Shown here piece by piece: positions 4,700 to 52,572 of a stretch of 64,000 nucleotides of DNA; position 1 is the first letter of the stretch; every line of letters begins with the position of its first letter. The notes below the pieces were generated by a model. It made no database searches. It was not told where the DNA came from and was given only the letters and a program-made list of their open reading frames with translations. Source of the stretch: Oscillospiraceae bacterium (lineage in GTDB: Bacteria; Bacillota; Clostridia; Lachnospirales; Lachnospiraceae); assembly GCA_021771715.1 (NCBI GenBank), contig JAETOO010000011.1:1-64000 (forward strand), given 5' to 3'. The position numbers and the translations under genes were made by a program.

Positions 4700-6442
4700 T
4701 TACGGTGTCATCCCCTTCAGCCGCTCCGTCTCCTCCCGGATCACTGCCGCCTCCGCGTCGGTCAGCTTCTCCGGCTTCTTGAAGCGGGTGGCCTTCTGGA
4801 CGGCGGCGATCTGCGCTTTAAGCTCGCGCTTCTTCTCCTTGTCGATCGTCTTCCGGTTCTCCGCGATATACTGCTGCGCCTTCGCGATCGCAGCGTTCGC
4901 CTCGCCGATCGCATCGAGCTGCTCCATCTTGTGGTGATCCTCGTACTCGTAGGCCGCCGCGTCGTGGATCGCCTTCTCGATCTCCTCGTCGGAGAGCTTG
5001 TTGTTCGCCGTGATCGTGATACTCTGCTCCTTGCCCGTGCCGAGATCCCTCGCCGACACGTTCACGATCCCGTTTGCGTCAATGTCAAACGTCACCTCGA
5101 TCTGCGGGACGCCCGCCGGGGCGCGCTTGATGCCGTTCAGGCGGAAATTGCCGAGCAGCGTGTTGTCGCGCGCGAACTGGCGCTCCCCCTGCAGCACCTT
5201 GATCTCCACCGAGGTCTGGAAATTCCCCGCGGTCGTGAAGACCTTGCTGTACCTGGCCGGAATGGTCGTGTTGCGCTCGATGATCCGGGTCGCCACACCG
5301 CCGACTGTCTCGATCGAGAGCGACAGCGGCGTCACGTCCATCAGAATCAGCTCCGCAGCAGCGCCGCTGCTCACGAGACCGCCGAGCTTCGCGCCCTGCA
5401 CGGCCGCGCCGAGCGCCACGCACTCATCCGGGTTCAGGCTGCGCGAGGGCTCCTTGCCGGTGAGACGGCGCACCTTCTCCTGCACCGCCGGAATCCGCGT
5501 CGAGCCGCCGACCAGCAGCACCATGCCAAGCTGCGAGGCCGAAATCCCCGCATCCTCGAGCACCTTGCGCACCGGCACCTCCGTCCGCTCCACCAGCTCC
5601 CGCGTGATCTCGTCGAACACGGCCCGCGTGATCTCCATGTCCAGATGCTTCGGCTCCCCGTGCACCGTCGTCACGAACGGCAGGTTGATGCTTGCGATGC
5701 TCTGGGAGGAGAGCACCTTTTTCGCCTCCTCGGCCGCCTCGCGCACGCGGTGCAGGGCGATCGGATCCTTCGCCAGATTCACTTTTTCCGTCTTCTTGTA
5801 CTGCTCCACGATATAGTCTGTCAATCGCTGGTCGAAATCGTCGCCGCCCAGGTGATTGTCCCCGGCGGTCGCAAGCACCTCGATCAGCCCCTCCCCGATC
5901 TCGATCAAGGACACGTCAAACGTGCCGCCGCCCAGGTCGTACACCATGATCTTCTGCGGCTGTCCGTTGTCCAATCCATACGCCAGCGCCGCGGAGGTCG
6001 GCTCGTTGATGATCCGCAGCACGTTCAGCCCCGCGATCCGGCCGGCGTCCTTCGTCGCCTGGCGCTGGGCGTCGTTGAAGTAGGCCGGAACCGTGATCAC
6101 GGCCTCGCTGACCGTATCCCCGAGGTACGCCTCCGCATCCTTTTTCAGCTTCATCAGAATGTACGCCGAGATCTCCTGCGGCGTGTAGCTCTTTGCGTCA
6201 ATCCGCTTCCGGTACGACGTCCCCATCTCCCGCTTGATCGAGGCGATCGTCCGGTCCACATTCGCCGCCGCCTGCCGCTTCGCCACAGAGCCGACAAGCC
6301 GCTCGCCTTTCTTCGAAAACGCGACCACCGACGGGGTCGTCCGCTCGCCCTCCGCGTTGACAATGACCGTCGGCTCACCGCCCTCGAGCACCGCCACGCA
6401 GCTGTTCGTCGTGCCAAGATCTATCCCGATTACTTTTCCCAT
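4700..6442 (-). CDS. Stand-alone DnaK-type Hsp70 chaperone
   Basis: An ATP-dependent chaperone of 580 residues, shorter than typical DnaK (about 600-640) because the C-terminal lid is short. The nucleotide-binding domain carries GIDLGTTNS (5-13), [12 protein letters not shown] and [12 protein letters not shown], followed by the substrate-binding beta domain (~370-490) with [27 protein letters not shown] precedes the ATG. There is no grpE, dnaJ or hrcA next to it, so it is probably a second, paralogous DnaK rather than the main heat-shock operon copy. I saw no CIRCE-like inverted repeat upstream. Its client and J-protein partner cannot be told from context. Confidence 0.92.
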
Positions 6443-6463
6443 ATAGATACACTCCTTATCTGA

Positions 6464-6547
6464 CAGACCGGTACTGCCTGCACAGCCAATACCTGTCCTG
6501 ATCTGCAGACCGGTATCGCCTGCACAGCCAATACCTGTCCTGATCTG
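6464..6547. repeat. Tandem repeat, 2 x 42 bp
   Basis: Two nearly identical 42-bp units (6464-6505 and 6506-6547), each starting CAGACCGGTA and ending CCTGTCCTGATCTG. They lie just upstream of the dnaK start. Differences are confined to two or three bases. Confidence 0.85.
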
Positions 6548-6712
6548 ATTTCCTGTAAAAGTCTTCCTTCCTTACTGTACCCTCAAACACTTCGAGCGTC
6601 AATATGCCCTGCCCGTGTTTCATGGAAATTTTAGAAAGTTCAGGACCTGTTTACCTGATCCGCTGCCACGACTAAACAGCTTTTGCGCGAGATACTCATT
6701 TTTCCCCTACGC

Positions 6713-6769: not shown

Positions 6770-6866
6770 GGCGCTCCATACACGCCTGCCAGATCTGTGC
6801 TCCTTCAGGCACTCCACTCACGCCTGCCAGATCTATGCTCCTTCAGGCACTCCACTCACGCCTGAC
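6770..6866. repeat. Tandem repeat, about 2.5 x 38 bp
   Basis: Units begin CACGCCTG at 6781, 6819 and 6857 (period 38), with a partial copy before the first. They lie in the spacer directly downstream of the reductase stop. With the 42-bp repeat and the terminator they account for most of the 454-bp gap at 6443-6896. Confidence 0.85.
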
Positions 6867-30627: not shown

Positions 30628-31887
30628 ATGCGTCTGATCTTTCATATAGATGTCAATTCTGCATTTTTGAGCTGGAGCGCGATCGAAAAGCTGAAGACCA
30701 GCCCGGAGCTCGACCTGCGCACGATTCCCGCGATCATCGGCGGGGACGAGCGGACGCGCCACGGCGTCGTGCTCGCGAAGTCGATCCCCGCGAAACGGTA
30801 CGGGGTGCAGACGGGCGAGCCGGTCGCGAACGCGCTGCGCAAGTGCCCGTTTCTCGTCATGGAGCCGCCCGACCACCGCCTCTACCGCCGCCGCAGCCAC
30901 GAGCTGATGGAGCTGCTGCACTCCTACACGCCCGACATCGAGCAGCTCTCGATCGACGAGTGTTTCCTGGACTACACGCCGATCAGCCACCGCTTCCCGT
31001 CCCCGGAATCAGCCGCCAGGACCATCGCGGACCGGGTGCACGACACGCTCGGCTTCACCGTCAACATCGGCATCGCGCCGAACCGGCTGCTCGCAAAGAT
31101 GGCGAGCGATTTCGAGAAGCCGGATCGGGTGCACACCCTCTACCCGGAGGAGATTCCGCAGAAAATGTGGCCGCTCTCGGTCCGCGACCTCTACATGGTC
31201 GGGAAGCGCAGCGCGGCGCGGCTCGAGGAGCTCGGCATCCGCACGATCGGGGAGCTGGCGCACTGCGATCCGGCGTTTCTGCAGTCCCATTTCAAGAGCC
31301 ACGGCAGGACCATGTGGGAGTACGCGAACGGCATCAGCAGCGACGTCCTCCAGCTCGAGGACCAGGACGCCAAGTGCATCGGGAACTCCACGACGCTCGG
31401 CGCCGACGCGACTTGTGCCCCGGCCGCCAAGCACGTCCTGCTCGAGCTCGCCGAGGAGGTCTCCGGCCGTCTGCGCCGGGCGCATCTGCTCGCGGGCAGC
31501 GTCACGGTCGAGATTAAGTACAACAATTTCCGCTCGTGCTCGCGCCAGACGCAGCTCTCCACCCCGCTTTCCGCGACCGACGCGCTCTACACCTGCGCCT
31601 GCCGCCTGTTCGACGAGCTCTGGAACGGGACGCCGATCCGCCTGCTGGGCATCCGCACCGCCAAGCTGCAGTCCGAGGACGCGCCGGTGCAGCTCTCGCT
31701 CTTCGAATGGGAGAAACAGGCCGCCCTCCGCCCTGCTGCGGCGAAGGAAGAGGGAGCACAGGCACCGCGCCCGGCAGCCAGCCTCGAGCGGCAGCGCCGC
31801 CTCGACGCCGCAATGGATCAGATCCGCCAGCGGTACGGGGACTCCGCCATCATAAAGGGAGCGTTTCTGCCGAAGAAAGAACGTTGA
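30628..31887 (+). CDS. dinB: Y-family DNA polymerase IV
   Basis: A 419-residue translesion polymerase. The catalytic palm shows FHIDVNSAFLSW (first Asp) and SIDECFLDYT (SxDE motif with the second acidic pair), then a helix-hairpin-helix region (MVGKRSAARLEELGIRTIGEL) and the little-finger domain. LSLFEW near the C terminus may be the beta-clamp motif. AAAGGAG sets the ATG at 30628. It copies damaged templates with low fidelity. The gene stands alone on the plus strand. Confidence 0.93.
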   Translation: MRLIFHIDVNSAFLSWSAIEKLKTSPELDLRTIPAIIGGDERTRHGVVLAKSIPAKRYGVQTGEPVANALRKCPFLVMEPPDHRLYRRRSHELMELLHSYTPDIEQLSIDECFLDYTPISHRFPSPESAARTIADRVHDTLGFTVNIGIAPNRLLAKMASDFEKPDRVHTLYPEEIPQKMWPLSVRDLYMVGKRSAARLEELGIRTIGELAHCDPAFLQSHFKSHGRTMWEYANGISSDVLQLEDQDAKCIGNSTTLGADATCAPAAKHVLLELAEEVSGRLRRAHLLAGSVTVEIKYNNFRSCSRQTQLSTPLSATDALYTCACRLFDELWNGTPIRLLGIRTAKLQSEDAPVQLSLFEWEKQAALRPAAAKEEGAQAPRPAASLERQRRLDAAMDQIRQRYGDSAIIKGAFLPKKER

Positions 31888-36661: not shown

Positions 36662-38464
36662 TCACCTTTCCAGTTCCCGCAATCGCGCCTCGATCGCTGC
36701 CCCGCTCTCGTCAAACAGCAGCTGCCGGTTGTAGCGGTAATAGCGCTCGCACTCGTACTCCTCCAGGAACCGCGTGCTGTAGTAGTCGCTGTTCAGCTCC
36801 GTGATGAAGATGACCAGCTCCTGTCCGTTCCCGAAGGCCGCCTCCATAAAGTCAAACGCGTGCTCGAGCATCGCTCCCGCGTCCTCCGTCTCCTGCTCCA
36901 GCGCGTCCTGTGCCTCGTTGAACCAGCCGCGAACCAGACCAAATTCATACTCTGCGGACGCCGGCCGCACCGATCCTGCCCCAACAGTCACTGTCTCCGT
37001 CTGCTCTGTGTCTGAGGGCAGTGCCCCAACAGTCACCGTCTCCGTCCGTTCTGTGTCTGAAGACAGTGCTCCGGCAGGTATCCCGGTCAGCCGCCTCGCG
37101 TACTCCTCGAGTGTGCGGATCACGTTCCGGTAAACGCGGTCCTCCCGTCTGGTCAGGAGCTCGGCCGCCTTCTTTTTCTCCCACTCCTGCTGCAGCTCCT
37201 CCGTGATCTGGTGCAGCACCGCGCACACGCTGCGATCTGCCGCCGGTTCTCTCCCCGCATCCCCGGACAATCCGTCAATCGGTTTCGTCTTCCCGCCAAA
37301 TACACCGGCGGCCGACGTCACCTGACTCTCCCCATGCTCCGAAGCCGACAGCGCCTGCTCTGATTCCGGAATATCCGAAGCTGACAGGCCCGAATCCGGC
37401 ATATCCGAATCCCCGCGGTCTATACCAACCGCCTGACGCAATCGTTTCAGCTGCTCAAACAGCAGTTCCAGCTCTTTTTCTCTGCCGAGCACCGCCGCAA
37501 AGCGGGAGCGGCAGCGCGCGAGCAGCAGCCCTGTGACGCTCAGACGCTCATCAAATGGCGCGTGCGCTGCCTTTTTCAGCAGGAGATCGTCGATCTGACC
37601 AGCGAGCACGGCATCCAGCTGGTAATCCATCTGGTATTTGTAGTACAGCTCGAGATAGTTGGCGAAATCCTTTGCGATCTTCTCGTGCTGAATGTACTGC
37701 ACGACCACATCCCGGTCCATCGTCTTGTTCAGCTGCTCGTAGACCGTCAGCATCTGCGACAGATCCTCCCAACCGCGTGGCGTCGCGAAGCGCCGCCCGT
37801 CCACCGTCGTCTCCATCCGGTAGAAGTTGGCGGTCCGCGTGTTCAGATAGGAAATCACCGCCGGGTGCAGCTGCTCCTTCACCGCGTACTCCTTCCACAC
37901 GGCAAAGTCCGGCTCCACATCGATCTTTTTCACGCGGTCCATCGTCACCACGTCGAACTCGCGGACTGACTTGTTGTACTCCGGCGGGTTGCCCGCAGCC
38001 ACGATAATCCAGCCCTTTGGGATCTCATGATTGCCGAACGTCTTGCACTGCAGGAACTGCAGCATGGCCGGGGCCAGCGTCTCCGAGACACAGTTGATCT
38101 CGTCAATAAACAGAATCCCCTCCTGCAGTCCCGTCTTCTCCATCTTGTCGTAGAGGGAGGCAACGATCTCGCTCATCGTGTACTCTGTGACCGCATACTC
38201 CTTCTCCCCATACATATGCTTTGAGATATACGGCAGACCAATCGCGCTCTGCCGCGTGTGGTGTGTGATCGTGTACGCCACCAGCCCGATCCCGCACTCC
38301 TTTGCGATCTGCTCCATGATCTGCGTCTTGCCGATCCCGGGCGCCCCCAGAAGCAGCACCGGGCGCTGCCGGATCTGCGGGATCCGGTACTCCCCGTACA
38401 CATCCTTTGCCAGATACGCCTCAATCGTATCCTTGATTTCCTGCTTTGCACGCTTGATATTCAT
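36662..38464 (-). CDS. MoxR-type AAA+ ATPase with variable C-terminal region
   Basis: A 600-residue AAA+ protein. Walker A is LLGAPGIGKTQIM (~33-45), Walker B GILFIDEINCVS (~113-124), sensor 1 IVAAGNPPEY, and an Arg-finger region follows. The ATPase core ends near 300. The remainder is a helical region interrupted at ~370-440 and ~485-520 by low-complexity segments, including two copies of a 15-residue unit (ALSSDTERTETVTVG-type). GAGAGGA precedes the ATG. It is encoded 29 bp after a VWA protein, the usual MoxR partner. Such pairs act as chaperones for metal or complex assembly. No target is known here. Confidence 0.85.
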   Translation of the reverse strand: MNIKRAKQEIKDTIEAYLAKDVYGEYRIPQIRQRPVLLLGAPGIGKTQIMEQIAKECGIGLVAYTITHHTRQSAIGLPYISKHMYGEKEYAVTEYTMSEIVASLYDKMEKTGLQEGILFIDEINCVSETLAPAMLQFLQCKTFGNHEIPKGWIIVAAGNPPEYNKSVREFDVVTMDRVKKIDVEPDFAVWKEYAVKEQLHPAVISYLNTRTANFYRMETTVDGRRFATPRGWEDLSQMLTVYEQLNKTMDRDVVVQYIQHEKIAKDFANYLELYYKYQMDYQLDAVLAGQIDDLLLKKAAHAPFDERLSVTGLLLARCRSRFAAVLGREKELELLFEQLKRLRQAVGIDRGDSDMPDSGLSASDIPESEQALSASEHGESQVTSAAGVFGGKTKPIDGLSGDAGREPAADRSVCAVLHQITEELQQEWEKKKAAELLTRREDRVYRNVIRTLEEYARRLTGIPAGALSSDTERTETVTVGALPSDTEQTETVTVGAGSVRPASAEYEFGLVRGWFNEAQDALEQETEDAGAMLEHAFDFMEAAFGNGQELVIFITELNSDYYSTRFLEEYECERYYRYNRQLLFDESGAAIEARLRELER

Positions 38465-43143: not shown

Positions 43144-43262
43144 TGCCATTTGCCAAACCCTGCATCGGTGCGCACGTCCTTCGCATCCCGCAGCGGCTTC
43201 GCCCTTCCCCTGCTATTTATCGAACCCTGCATCCGAGCGCACGTCCATGTAATCCCGCAGCG
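43144..43262. repeat. Tandem repeat, 67-bp period, duplicated permease gene tail
   Basis: The copy at 43211-43262 is the 3' end of the permease gene, coding LRDYMDVRSDAGFDK-stop. The copy at 43144-43210 lies beyond the stop and, in the same frame, still reads LRDAKDVRTDAGFGK, with the stop codon changed to Trp. It is the clearest case of gene-tail duplication in the window. Confidence 0.9.
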
Positions 43263-44034
43263 CGTCCCCCAGCAGGTTGACGCACATCGACAGCACAAAA
43301 ATGCATGCGCCCGGTGCGATGACCAGAAGCGGGGAGCTGCGGAACATCCCTCTCGCATCGCTGATCATCACGCCCCAGTCCGGCGTGGGCGGCTGCAGAC
43401 CCAGCCCCAGAAAACTCAGCGAGGCGACAGAGAGCACCGCGCGCCCGACTCTCGTGGTAAACACGACCGCCAGATTTCCGATGATATTCGGGAGGACATT
43501 GCGCACGATGATCCGGAAGGAGCCCGCGCCCACGCTCCGCTCCCCCTCGATAAAATTCTCCCCGCAAACGGCCATCGTCTCCCCGCGGGCCAGCCTGGAA
43601 AAGCTCACCCAGGAGGTCAGCACCAGCGACAGCAGCAGGCTGTCGATCCCGCCGCCCATGATCCCGGCGATCGCGATCATCAGCGTGGTGCCCGGCAACC
43701 CCTGAAAAATATTGCTGACAATCGTCAGGCAGGTGTCGATGAAACCGCCAAAATACCCGGCCACCACGCCCACCGTCATCCCCAGAAGCAGCGAGCACGA
43801 GGTCGCGATCACCGCGAGCAGCATCGACTGCCGCCCTCCGTACATCACTCTGCTGAGCACGTCCCGGCCCAGGTTGTCTGTTCCCAGCCAGTGCGCAGCG
43901 GACGGACCCTCCTGAATGCGGGACATGTCGATCGCATTTGGCTCATACGGGGCAAGCACCGGAGCGAGCATGCTCACTCCCACCAGAATTGCCAGGATCC
44001 CAATCAGAATCCAGGTCGATCTTCTCACTCTCAC
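43213..44034 (-). CDS. ABC transporter permease (DppC/NikC type)
   Basis: A 273-residue inner-membrane permease with six hydrophobic segments. GTDNLGRDVLSRVMYGGRQS is the conserved DppC/NikC segment, and the EAA loop is around ENFIEGERSVGAGSFRIIVRNVLPN. Its start overlaps the preceding permease by 4 bp. The end of the gene is duplicated downstream. Confidence 0.92.
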   Translation of the reverse strand: MRVRRSTWILIGILAILVGVSMLAPVLAPYEPNAIDMSRIQEGPSAAHWLGTDNLGRDVLSRVMYGGRQSMLLAVIATSCSLLLGMTVGVVAGYFGGFIDTCLTIVSNIFQGLPGTTLMIAIAGIMGGGIDSLLLSLVLTSWVSFSRLARGETMAVCGENFIEGERSVGAGSFRIIVRNVLPNIIGNLAVVFTTRVGRAVLSVASLSFLGLGLQPPTPDWGVMISDARGMFRSSPLLVIAPGACIFVLSMCVNLLGDALRDYMDVRSDAGFDK

Positions 44035-45096: not shown

Positions 45097-45171
45097 TTGT
45101 ATCTGTCATTCTCTATTCCTATACCCGGTCCGCGGCGCAACCTGCCCTGTCATCTGCTCTCCGGATCTGCC

Positions 45172-45335
45172 GGCGCTGCACTCTGCTCTGAAGGCCGCAC
45201 CCTCGATCCCCAGGCGCTGCACTCTGCTCTGAAGGCCGCACCCCCGATCCTCAGGCGCTGCACCCTGCTCTGAAGGCCGCACCCTCGGCCCCCAGGCGCT
45301 GCACTCTGCTCTGTCGGCCGCTCCGCCGCATCCGC
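45172..45335. repeat. Tandem repeat, 4 x 41 bp
   Basis: GGCGCTGCA units begin at 45172, 45213, 45254 and 45295 (period 41). The fourth is diverged at its end. The array lies between the binding-protein stop and the attenuator. With the terminator it occupies much of the 400-bp gap at 44976-45375. Confidence 0.9.
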
Positions 45336-45375
45336 AGGTATCGGATCCGCTCTGCCGTCCTGCTCCACTCACCAC

Positions 45376-47146: not shown

Positions 47147-47219
47147 TATAGGAGCAAACGATATGAAAAGTCAACGGACCTGTCATTCTGCCTCTTTCCC
47201 ACCGAAAGATCGCGTGAAT

Positions 47220-47396
47220 AAACTTCCCTGGCAGGTCTCCTGGCTCGGCTTCGTCCCTTCATCCGCCTTACCGGCCGTGCGGCCAGTGGCATATCTGGAT
47301 GTCAGTCCACCTTACAGTAGCGGGGGCTGCTACAGCATCTCACTGTATTCCCTTTTCAGACGCGCCCCGCCGTCCGGCGAAACGCATCACCAAAGA
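47220..47396 (-). promoter_or_regulatory. Cobalamin riboswitch
   Basis: On the minus strand the leader has, in order, GGTGATGCG, a GGGAA segment, GCAGCCCCCGCTACTGTAAG, GCCACTGG, and the B12 box AGCCAGGAGACCTGCC (47231-47246). These are the conserved elements of the adenosylcobalamin riboswitch. It precedes the ABC importer genes and is followed by a terminator, so it should shut the importer off when cobalamin is plentiful. Confidence 0.93.
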
Positions 47397-47411
47397 AGTA
47401 TCTGTAAGGGC

Positions 47412-50883: not shown

Positions 50884-51107
50884 CAGATATCCGATACACC
50901 GGCTCCTTCATTTCTCAGATATCTTATACGCCAACTGCTTTATATCACGGATATCTTATACGCTAACTGCTTCATCTCACAGATATCCCACACGCCAACT
51001 GCCTCGTCTCACAGCTATCCCGCACGCCAACTGCCTCGTCTCACAGATATCCCGCACGCCAACTGCCTCGTCTCACAGATATCTTGTATACCGGCTGCCA
51101 CAGATCA
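50884..51107. repeat. Tandem repeat, 7 x 32 bp
   Basis: CAGATATC-led units start at 50884 and then every 32 bp up to 51076, ending at 51107, nine bases from the dapA stop. The middle copies are nearly identical and the outer ones are more diverged. No unique spacers occur between units, so it is not a CRISPR array. Confidence 0.95.
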
Positions 51108-52109: not shown

Positions 52110-52134
52110 AAAGAAATCGCACTCTTCTCTTTAA

Positions 52135-52300
52135 GATAGCCCTCCATCGAAATCCGATGACAGTCATATGGCTCTTCGCCATATGCCCAAGGCAGGCAGC
52201 TCCAGGCGCTGTCCCCTTTCGGCGCCTTCCCCTTTCCGCCTCCCTCGCCTGTGCCTGAACACATCCGAAGGTGTACTGATGAAACGCGCAACCTCTATCA
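52135..52300 (-). promoter_or_regulatory. Lysine riboswitch (L box)
   Basis: On the minus strand the leader reads GATAGAGGTTGCGCG, CATCAGTA, then GGCGGAAAGGGGAAGGCGCC and GAAAGG, CCTTGGGC with the GGCATATGGC/GCCATATGA hairpin, ACTGTCATCGG and GGAGGGCTATC. This is the conserved L-box order and its closing stem (GATAG with CTATC). A perfect promoter precedes it and an intrinsic terminator follows, so it controls dapA by attenuation. Confidence 0.93.
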
Positions 52301-52356
52301 CTGTTTTTGTTGTTCCGTTACCGTCCGGCTGGGAGCCGAACAGTAATGTTGTGCCT

Positions 52357-52445: not shown

Positions 52446-52572
52446 ACATGACATCTGTATCGTTCACACGCCGGGAGTCTACCGGACACATCATCTGTAT
52501 CGTTCACACGCCGGGAGCCTACCGGACACATCATCTGTATCGTTCACACGCCGGAAGCCCACGCATGATCTC
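52446..52572. repeat. Tandem repeat, 3 x 40 bp, next to the cobO stop
   Basis: ATCTGTATCGTTCACACGCC occurs at 52453, 52493 and 52533 (period 40). The segment that runs into the end of the adenosyltransferase gene resembles a diverged fourth copy (GAACG.TA...GAT.ATG...GGCT.CCGG on the minus strand). With the riboswitch it fills most of the 573-bp gap at 52001-52573. Confidence 0.88.

Follow-up and report, generated by a model that had tools for sequence, protein, structure and literature searches.

The MIRU units of mycobacteria are tandem repeats that lie in spacers, can touch the upstream stop codon and have a common family sequence. The TAACTGA direct repeats of the Beggiatoaceae consist, in the available part of their description, of a single fixed 7-bp motif that is placed mostly before start codons (PMC4679880). 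The tandem repeats of Borgs, as given in the available part of the published account, are perfect, A-biased and carried on archaeal extrachromosomal elements; they are scattered over the genome with 43–65 % in ORFs, arise independently and recently, and are virtually absent from host genomes, and their unit lengths are divisible by three in ORFs and mostly not in intergenic regions (14–38 %; PMC9879509).

In the window (the whole stretch of DNA analysed, 64 000 nucleotides), a DppC/NikC-like permease gene (CDS 43213–44034, minus strand, gene end at 43213) was found to be followed by a diverged copy of its own tail. The last codons of the gene (43215–43262) and part of the 3′ spacer (43148–43195), both read on the minus strand, were aligned without gaps at 38 of 48 identical positions and an offset of 67 bp. 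The pair scored 25.5; the maximum in 2000 first-order Markov shuffles was 13 (0/2000 as good), and the near copy beyond the stop that had been noticed in the first-pass annotation of this DNA was thus confirmed. The encoded protein is a BPD_transp_1 protein (PF00528), and all the listed NCBIfam models matched it below their curated cut-offs. Tandem Repeats Finder (TRF) did not report the pair at a score of at least 40, which marks it as a diverged duplication, and because 67 bp is no multiple of three the copy is out of frame and does not extend the protein in frame at its C-terminus. The stretch LGDALRDYMD of the permease tail was recognisable in seven of the seven homologues counted (L135 and L136 were set aside), and the downstream copy was absent from all seven (scores 6.5–9); the gene side is therefore the older. 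The pair is the seventh gene-tail case in the window and lies under the TRF threshold.

The other window arrays were listed by using TRF with periods of at least 20 bp, gene calls made for this analysis and families assigned from domain matches. Fourteen arrays were obtained, all given on the minus strand: six overlapped a stop codon, none a start codon, five were intergenic and three lay inside genes. The stop-overlapping arrays were found at the ends of a csoR-like gene (PF02583; 12953–13088, 32 bp×4.2, 20 bp overlap, stop 13069), an M3 oligoendopeptidase gene (TIGR02289; 14638–15061, 65 bp×6.6, 22 bp overlap, stop 15040), an ArsC-like gene (PF03960; 19698–19801, 53 bp×1.9, 19 bp overlap, stop 19783), a EutH gene (PF04346; 20223–20378, 67 bp×2.4, 13 bp overlap, stop 20366), an LRR_5 gene (PF13306; 39935–40025, 37 bp×2.5, 10 bp overlap, stop 40016) and a Mrp/NUBPL-like gene (PF10609; 58185–58252, 35 bp×1.9, 29 bp overlap, stop 58224). 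The last of these was absent from the earlier list, and the gene that had been called pepF there is the M3 oligoendopeptidase gene (NCBIfam assignment M3_not_pepF). The claim that arrays overlap gene ends elsewhere in the window was upheld for csoR, this M3 gene, ArsC, EutH and LRR, and failed for cobO (PF02572), the array of which (52452–52559, 40 bp×2.7) starts 14 bp past stop 52574 and, at the boundary set by TRF, has no overlap with the gene. The spacer behind csoR is 275 bp long here and 16 bp long at the orthologue in the congener G018, which has no array there; the M3 array is absent from G018 as well.

Of the remaining intergenic arrays, one with 32/64 bp periods (50884–51088) lies entirely in the spacer behind a DHDPS-like gene (PF00701), and one with 41/82 bp periods (45161–45338) entirely in the spacer behind an SBP_bac_5 gene (PF00496). 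Two more were found at 6770–6864 (38 bp×2.5, nearest stop 32 bp away) and at 6453–6548 (42 bp×2.3), with the called start of gene 4700–6442 lying 10 bp downstream; the latter array, being self-complementary, forms a long hairpin on folding (z −6.6). The in-gene arrays, at 36977–37069 (45 bp period), 1656–1803 (15/30/60 bp) and 2595–2671 (15/30 bp), are all in frame. Matches in the window arrays ranged from 63 to 98 %, often with 2–4 copies. The units follow each other head-to-tail and are not parted by unique spacers, as repeats of a CRISPR array would be; a CRISPR array was ruled out. The window also contains two riboswitches, one for cobalamin (47213–47409) and one for lysine (52129–52305), both on the minus strand.

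Arrays were then counted in a 1.056 Mb sample (55.7 % GC, window included, small contigs C1 and C3 set aside) of the 4.18 Mb genome of 54 contigs; by the best named relative of the permease, this genome probably belongs to the Lachnospiraceae or close to them. An array was defined by a TRF score of at least 50 and a period of at least 20 bp, a cut-off chosen here. Of 45 annotated stops listed for 50 kb of E. coli K-12, the gene caller recovered 43. The sample held 165 arrays (156 per Mb), and an order-5 Markov version of it held two; the number of arrays is therefore above chance. The best period was 20–108 bp in 162 of them and 126, 135 and 156 bp in the other three. By place, 94 arrays were in-gene, 48 intergenic, 22 stop-overlapping and two start-overlapping, with one array in both of the last classes. 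Periods were divisible by three in 90 of the 94 in-gene arrays and, outside genes, in 24 of 71, which is near the chance third. By tenth of the gene, the in-gene arrays were distributed as 7, 14, 14, 10, 8, 7, 11, 9, 9 and 5, with no pile-up at either gene end; arrays that reach the stop were classed as stop overlaps, which affects the count of 5/94 in the last tenth. The 94 arrays, on average purine-rich, sit in 69 genes.

The units are local: a likeness elsewhere in the sample was seen for none of the 22 stop-overlapping units and for five of the 48 intergenic ones. Of the five, four are members of one hairpin-containing tandem unit of 37–40 bp (AAAAATGC...GCATTTTT), of which arrays or copies occur at five places of the genome (C2:43995–44253, which is L005:3995–4253; C31:308155–308470; C31:343400–343580; C2:39247–39327; C5:34313–34364). 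It forms a small tandem family that is dispersed, whereas most units of the other arrays are unique. At several loci, sequence comparison supports copying from the gene outward, because the permease motif is present in homologues that have no copy and because the csoR, ArsC and LRR tails resemble those of G018 orthologues that carry no array; the tail of the Mrp-like gene is unlike its G018 counterpart, and no direction can be read at that locus. The first-pass annotation had suggested repeated outward duplication from more strongly diverged outer copies. The direction was supported at these loci, the gradient not as a rule: among the nine stop-overlapping arrays of three or more copies in the 1.06 Mb sample, the last copy was less like copy 1 than copy 2 was in four, equally like it in two and more like it in three, so greater divergence of outer copies is no general rule. 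Identity to the gene-tail copy in the M3 array is 95 % for copy 6 and 77–83 % for copies 2–5.

These data are best explained, with a probability of roughly three in four, by short tandem duplication that is lineage-specific, acts genome-wide and is filtered by selection, with the tail copies as the part that survives. Duplications with units of mostly 20–100 bp would arise anywhere in the genome, probably by replication slippage, template switching or break repair. Inside genes, nearly only in-frame duplications survive. Upstream of starts fewer would be kept, as promoters, ribosome-binding sites and start spacing would be disturbed. Across a stop codon most should survive, as the complete gene with its stop would remain in the upstream copy. 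A new array could then gain copies by further slippage, and the copies would diverge by point mutation. The occurrence of arrays both in genes and in spacers, the frame filter, the lack of a C-terminal pile-up and the local units favour genome-wide duplication with selection.

The main rival is a process, of the sort proposed earlier, that makes duplications specifically at gene 3′ ends. In the form considered here, the DNA near stops would be nicked by RNA polymerase that pauses or terminates, by R-loops or by collisions, and repair would copy the tail outward. The check proposed with it, TRF on the sample and on relatives with a comparison of stops and starts, bore out the excess of stop overlaps over start overlaps (22 versus 2), which speaks for such a process, and gave small or no excess over a placement null. 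The asymmetry itself is real. In co-directional spacers, 38 of the 51 arrays were nearer to the stop and 13 nearer to the start (median distances 20 and 111 bp). The density per 10 kb of spacer was 8.3 arrays in convergent, 4.0 in co-directional and 2.5 in divergent spacers (11, 51 and 8 arrays), and the eight arrays in the 69 divergent spacers, in which there is no stop, count against a process that depends on gene ends.

One density with a protected zone of 110–210 bp before starts fitted the three spacer classes with a deviance of 0.2–0.6, versus 4.5–7.6 without the zone. For spacers of up to 1000 bp, uniform density with a protected zone gave expectations of 46.5 co-directional, 11.7 convergent and 7.8 divergent arrays, and 48, 11 and 7 were observed. 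The placement null lets duplications span stops, because such a duplication leaves the gene whole. When 60 bp before each start were protected, 13.1 stop overlaps were expected in spacers of up to 400 bp and 15 observed (P 0.31); the null with protected starts explains the overlaps in this range, which counts against the gene-end process. The fit of the spacer classes and of the stop overlaps in spacers of up to 400 bp favours duplication with selection.

Longer spacers gave a different result. In spacers of up to 1500 bp (49 arrays), 27 arrays lay within 30 bp of a stop versus about 17 expected (P 0.0015–0.004), and 17 overlapped a stop versus about 11 (P 0.027–0.042). In spacers of up to 600 bp, 27 of 47 arrays lay within 30 bp of a stop; 20.2 were expected with 60 bp protected (P 0.029) and 21.9–22.8 with 130–160 bp protected (P 0.08–0.13). 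This excess near stops supports the gene-end process once spacers of up to 1500 bp are included, and counts, in both ranges, against the preferred explanation. Unrecognised genes, RNAs and promoters in long spacers may push arrays towards stops. Start protection was incomplete, with 13 of 41 arrays in co-directional spacers of up to 400 bp placed within 60 bp of a start. Single copies were also sought: at a score of at least 14, tails were copied downstream in 15 of 709 cases, heads upstream in 3 of 709, mid-gene sites in 6 of 709 and swapped controls in 0 of 708; at a score of at least 20 the counts were 8 tails, 2 heads, 6 mid-gene sites and 0 swapped controls. The excess of tail over mid-gene copies at the lower threshold, which again fits a gene-end process, counts against duplication with selection, as does the incomplete protected zone.

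Arrays are purine-rich on the sense strand, with A over T and G over C. In co-directional spacers the purine share was 0.643 in arrays and 0.585 in other spacers (P 2×10−5), so the sites are not picked wholly at random; in-gene arrays had 0.634 versus 0.568 for the rest of the gene. A purine-rich sense strand is in line with the gene-end process, against which it can be set that arrays of convergent (0.61 versus 0.534) and divergent spacers (0.595 versus 0.552) have the same lean. The sense strand is mostly the leading strand (655 of 770 genes), as judged from gene direction and GC skew, and in genes on the opposite strand the purine bias is nearly gone (0.507 versus 0.492, 14 arrays). Replication–transcription conflict had been offered as one cause. 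All 51 arrays of co-directional spacers lie between majority-strand genes, with the majority strand taken as leading and with only 24 array-free lagging spacers of at least 60 bp as the base of comparison; head-on conflict is not favoured, and this proposal gains no support. With the stop overlaps accounted for in spacers of up to 400 bp, 94 in-gene arrays free of a C-terminal excess (stop-reaching arrays being counted separately) and 48 intergenic arrays, there is no need to assume a process bound to gene ends, and such a process is regarded as unlikely. A small extra attraction of arrays to gene ends is possible, as a modest excess was seen in longer spacers.

Junctions were inspected in the 67 arrays with at least 85 % matches, 31 of them resembling single duplications; the distribution of microhomology was broad, with no clear rule. 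The freshest array (C31, 319389–319498, 98 %) has no extension past two units.

The same method was applied to relatives and controls. In the two nearest sampled congeners, as judged by the M3 peptidase (77 % identity), five arrays were found in 387 kb (G018) and two in 147 kb (G020); the sampled density here exceeds that of close relatives by a ratio of about twelve. E. coli K-12 had three arrays in 200 kb. Further groups gave eight in 177 kb (G017) and three in 60 kb (G025), other named Firmicutes five in 143 kb, Lachnospiraceae one in 86 kb and a mixed set five in 248 kb. In Actinobacteria loci, mostly from Streptomyces, 83 arrays were found in 840 kb (55 in-gene, 21 intergenic, four at stops, three at starts); high counts are thus reached by high-GC genomes as well. 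The group comparison took in 73 of 80 loci and left out seven. Among the other 46 congeners, 35 were surveyed (1.29 Mb, G017, G018 and G020 included); they gave 81 arrays, very unevenly spread, from 11 in 20 kb of G012 to none in 20 kb of several genomes; most genomes were represented by one stretch of up to 20 kb, and single values are rough. In 12 of the surveyed genomes, picked for high density, 53 arrays were classed, of which 32 were in-gene (all in frame), 16 intergenic, four at stops and one at a start. High array density is probably shared beyond the present genome within the genus.

At the compared flanks, no array was found within 400 bp in any of 33 comparisons with G018 or ten with G020, and one was found in six with G017; these are comparisons of flanks and do not each stand for an array of its own, and the similarity of some gene pairs is only weak. 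Together with the lower density elsewhere, the array-free flanks in G018 and G020 favour duplication that is specific to the lineage. Orthologous spacers were not significantly longer here than in G018 (60 pairs, P 0.37), G020 (29 pairs, P 0.42) or G017 (15 pairs, P 0.41); genome-wide growth of spacers is not supported. Over the 60 pairs shared with G018, arrays make up 871 of the 1226 bp of net difference.

Arrays might instead be retained for a function, at mRNA 3′ ends, in read-through buffering or in tuning of the downstream gene. Folding was stronger than in shuffled sequences (z < −2.5) for three of 12 window arrays or array parts, namely csoR (−3.6), 6453–6548 (−6.6) and 6770–6864 (−2.75), which is the kind of signal that such a role could leave; the other nine folded no better than shuffles at this threshold, so a shared RNA structure was rejected. 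The stop-overlapping units have no common sequence, the compared flanks in G018 and G020 do without arrays, and retention for function is considered very improbable. A mobile or dispersed repeat family that lands preferentially after stops, for which the hairpin unit at five places could be cited, is the least credible reading and is already contradicted for the gene-tail arrays, none of the 22 stop-overlapping units having a likeness elsewhere in the sample and the tail copies being derived from the adjacent gene wherever this is visible.

Three repair-related families were searched in 47 congeners. A mutS1 match above the cut-off was found in 41, a Y-family polymerase domain in 44 and an SbcC-like match in 46, in each case including the present genome and G018; the SbcC-like match was under its curated cut-off in all 47, and likewise in 13 of 14 control genomes. 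Loss of these genes was therefore rejected as the cause, and none of the three families holds a gene that explains the density. One of two Y-family polymerase domain genes matched in the genome (IMS, PF00817) lies in the window at 30628–31887, plus strand. In G001 (C22) and G051 (C39) the mutS1 match is in two pieces within one frame, insertion-like, and in G014 (C83) it is similarly split, with one stop inside the match; the split is possibly the same kind of in-gene repeat. That no causal gene was found counts against duplication with selection, as do the purine lean and the orthologous spacers that are not longer.

As a tentative extension of the preferred reading, the genus might hold heritable “hyper-duplication” lineages, in which a change in replication or repair would raise 20–100 bp duplications to about ten times the level of relatives, preferably in purine-rich DNA of the leading strand. 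If so, it would be the bacterial-chromosome counterpart of Borg repeat formation, and would lengthen spacers and insert in-frame repeats into proteins. Should the rate be raised in some lineages and not in those closely related to them, the genus would offer a natural experiment on how bacteria control short tandem duplication. A striking positional pattern at gene ends can result when selection acts on a process that runs genome-wide, and proteins can acquire new in-frame repeats from such duplications.

In comparison with known systems, the arrays belong to the general kind of ordinary bacterial minisatellites (VNTR), with which they share head-to-tail units of tens of base pairs in and between genes; they differ in density, with 165 arrays in 1.056 Mb versus three in 200 kb of E. 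coli K-12. Like MIRU they include tandem spacer units able to touch the upstream stop, but the MIRU family sequence has no equivalent in the stop-overlapping units (0/22 with a likeness elsewhere; intergenic 5/48). From the TAACTGA repeats, as far as the available part of their description goes, they differ in that the unit changes from array to array in nearly all cases and that starts are avoided (PMC4679880). The nearest literature match among the matches listed, in a search mostly outside subscription journals and preprints, is the Borg repeats. On the available part of that account, the likeness lies in the scatter of arrays over the genome, in the share in ORFs of about half (here 94 of 165), in ORF periods divisible by three (here 90 of 94), in intergenic periods that are mostly not divisible by three (here 24 of 71 divisible) and in recent, independent formation (here 0/33 G018 and 0/10 G020 flanks with an array, G017 1/6); the differences are that the arrays here are imperfect (63–98 % matches), often of 2–4 copies and on a bacterial chromosome. 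A compositional bias occurs in both, towards A in Borg repeats and towards purines on the sense strand of the present arrays, and is not the same in the two (PMC9879509). What is of interest is that short tandem duplications are so dense in a bacterial chromosome and appear specific to the lineage, and a comparison of congeners might reveal the cause of the high array density.
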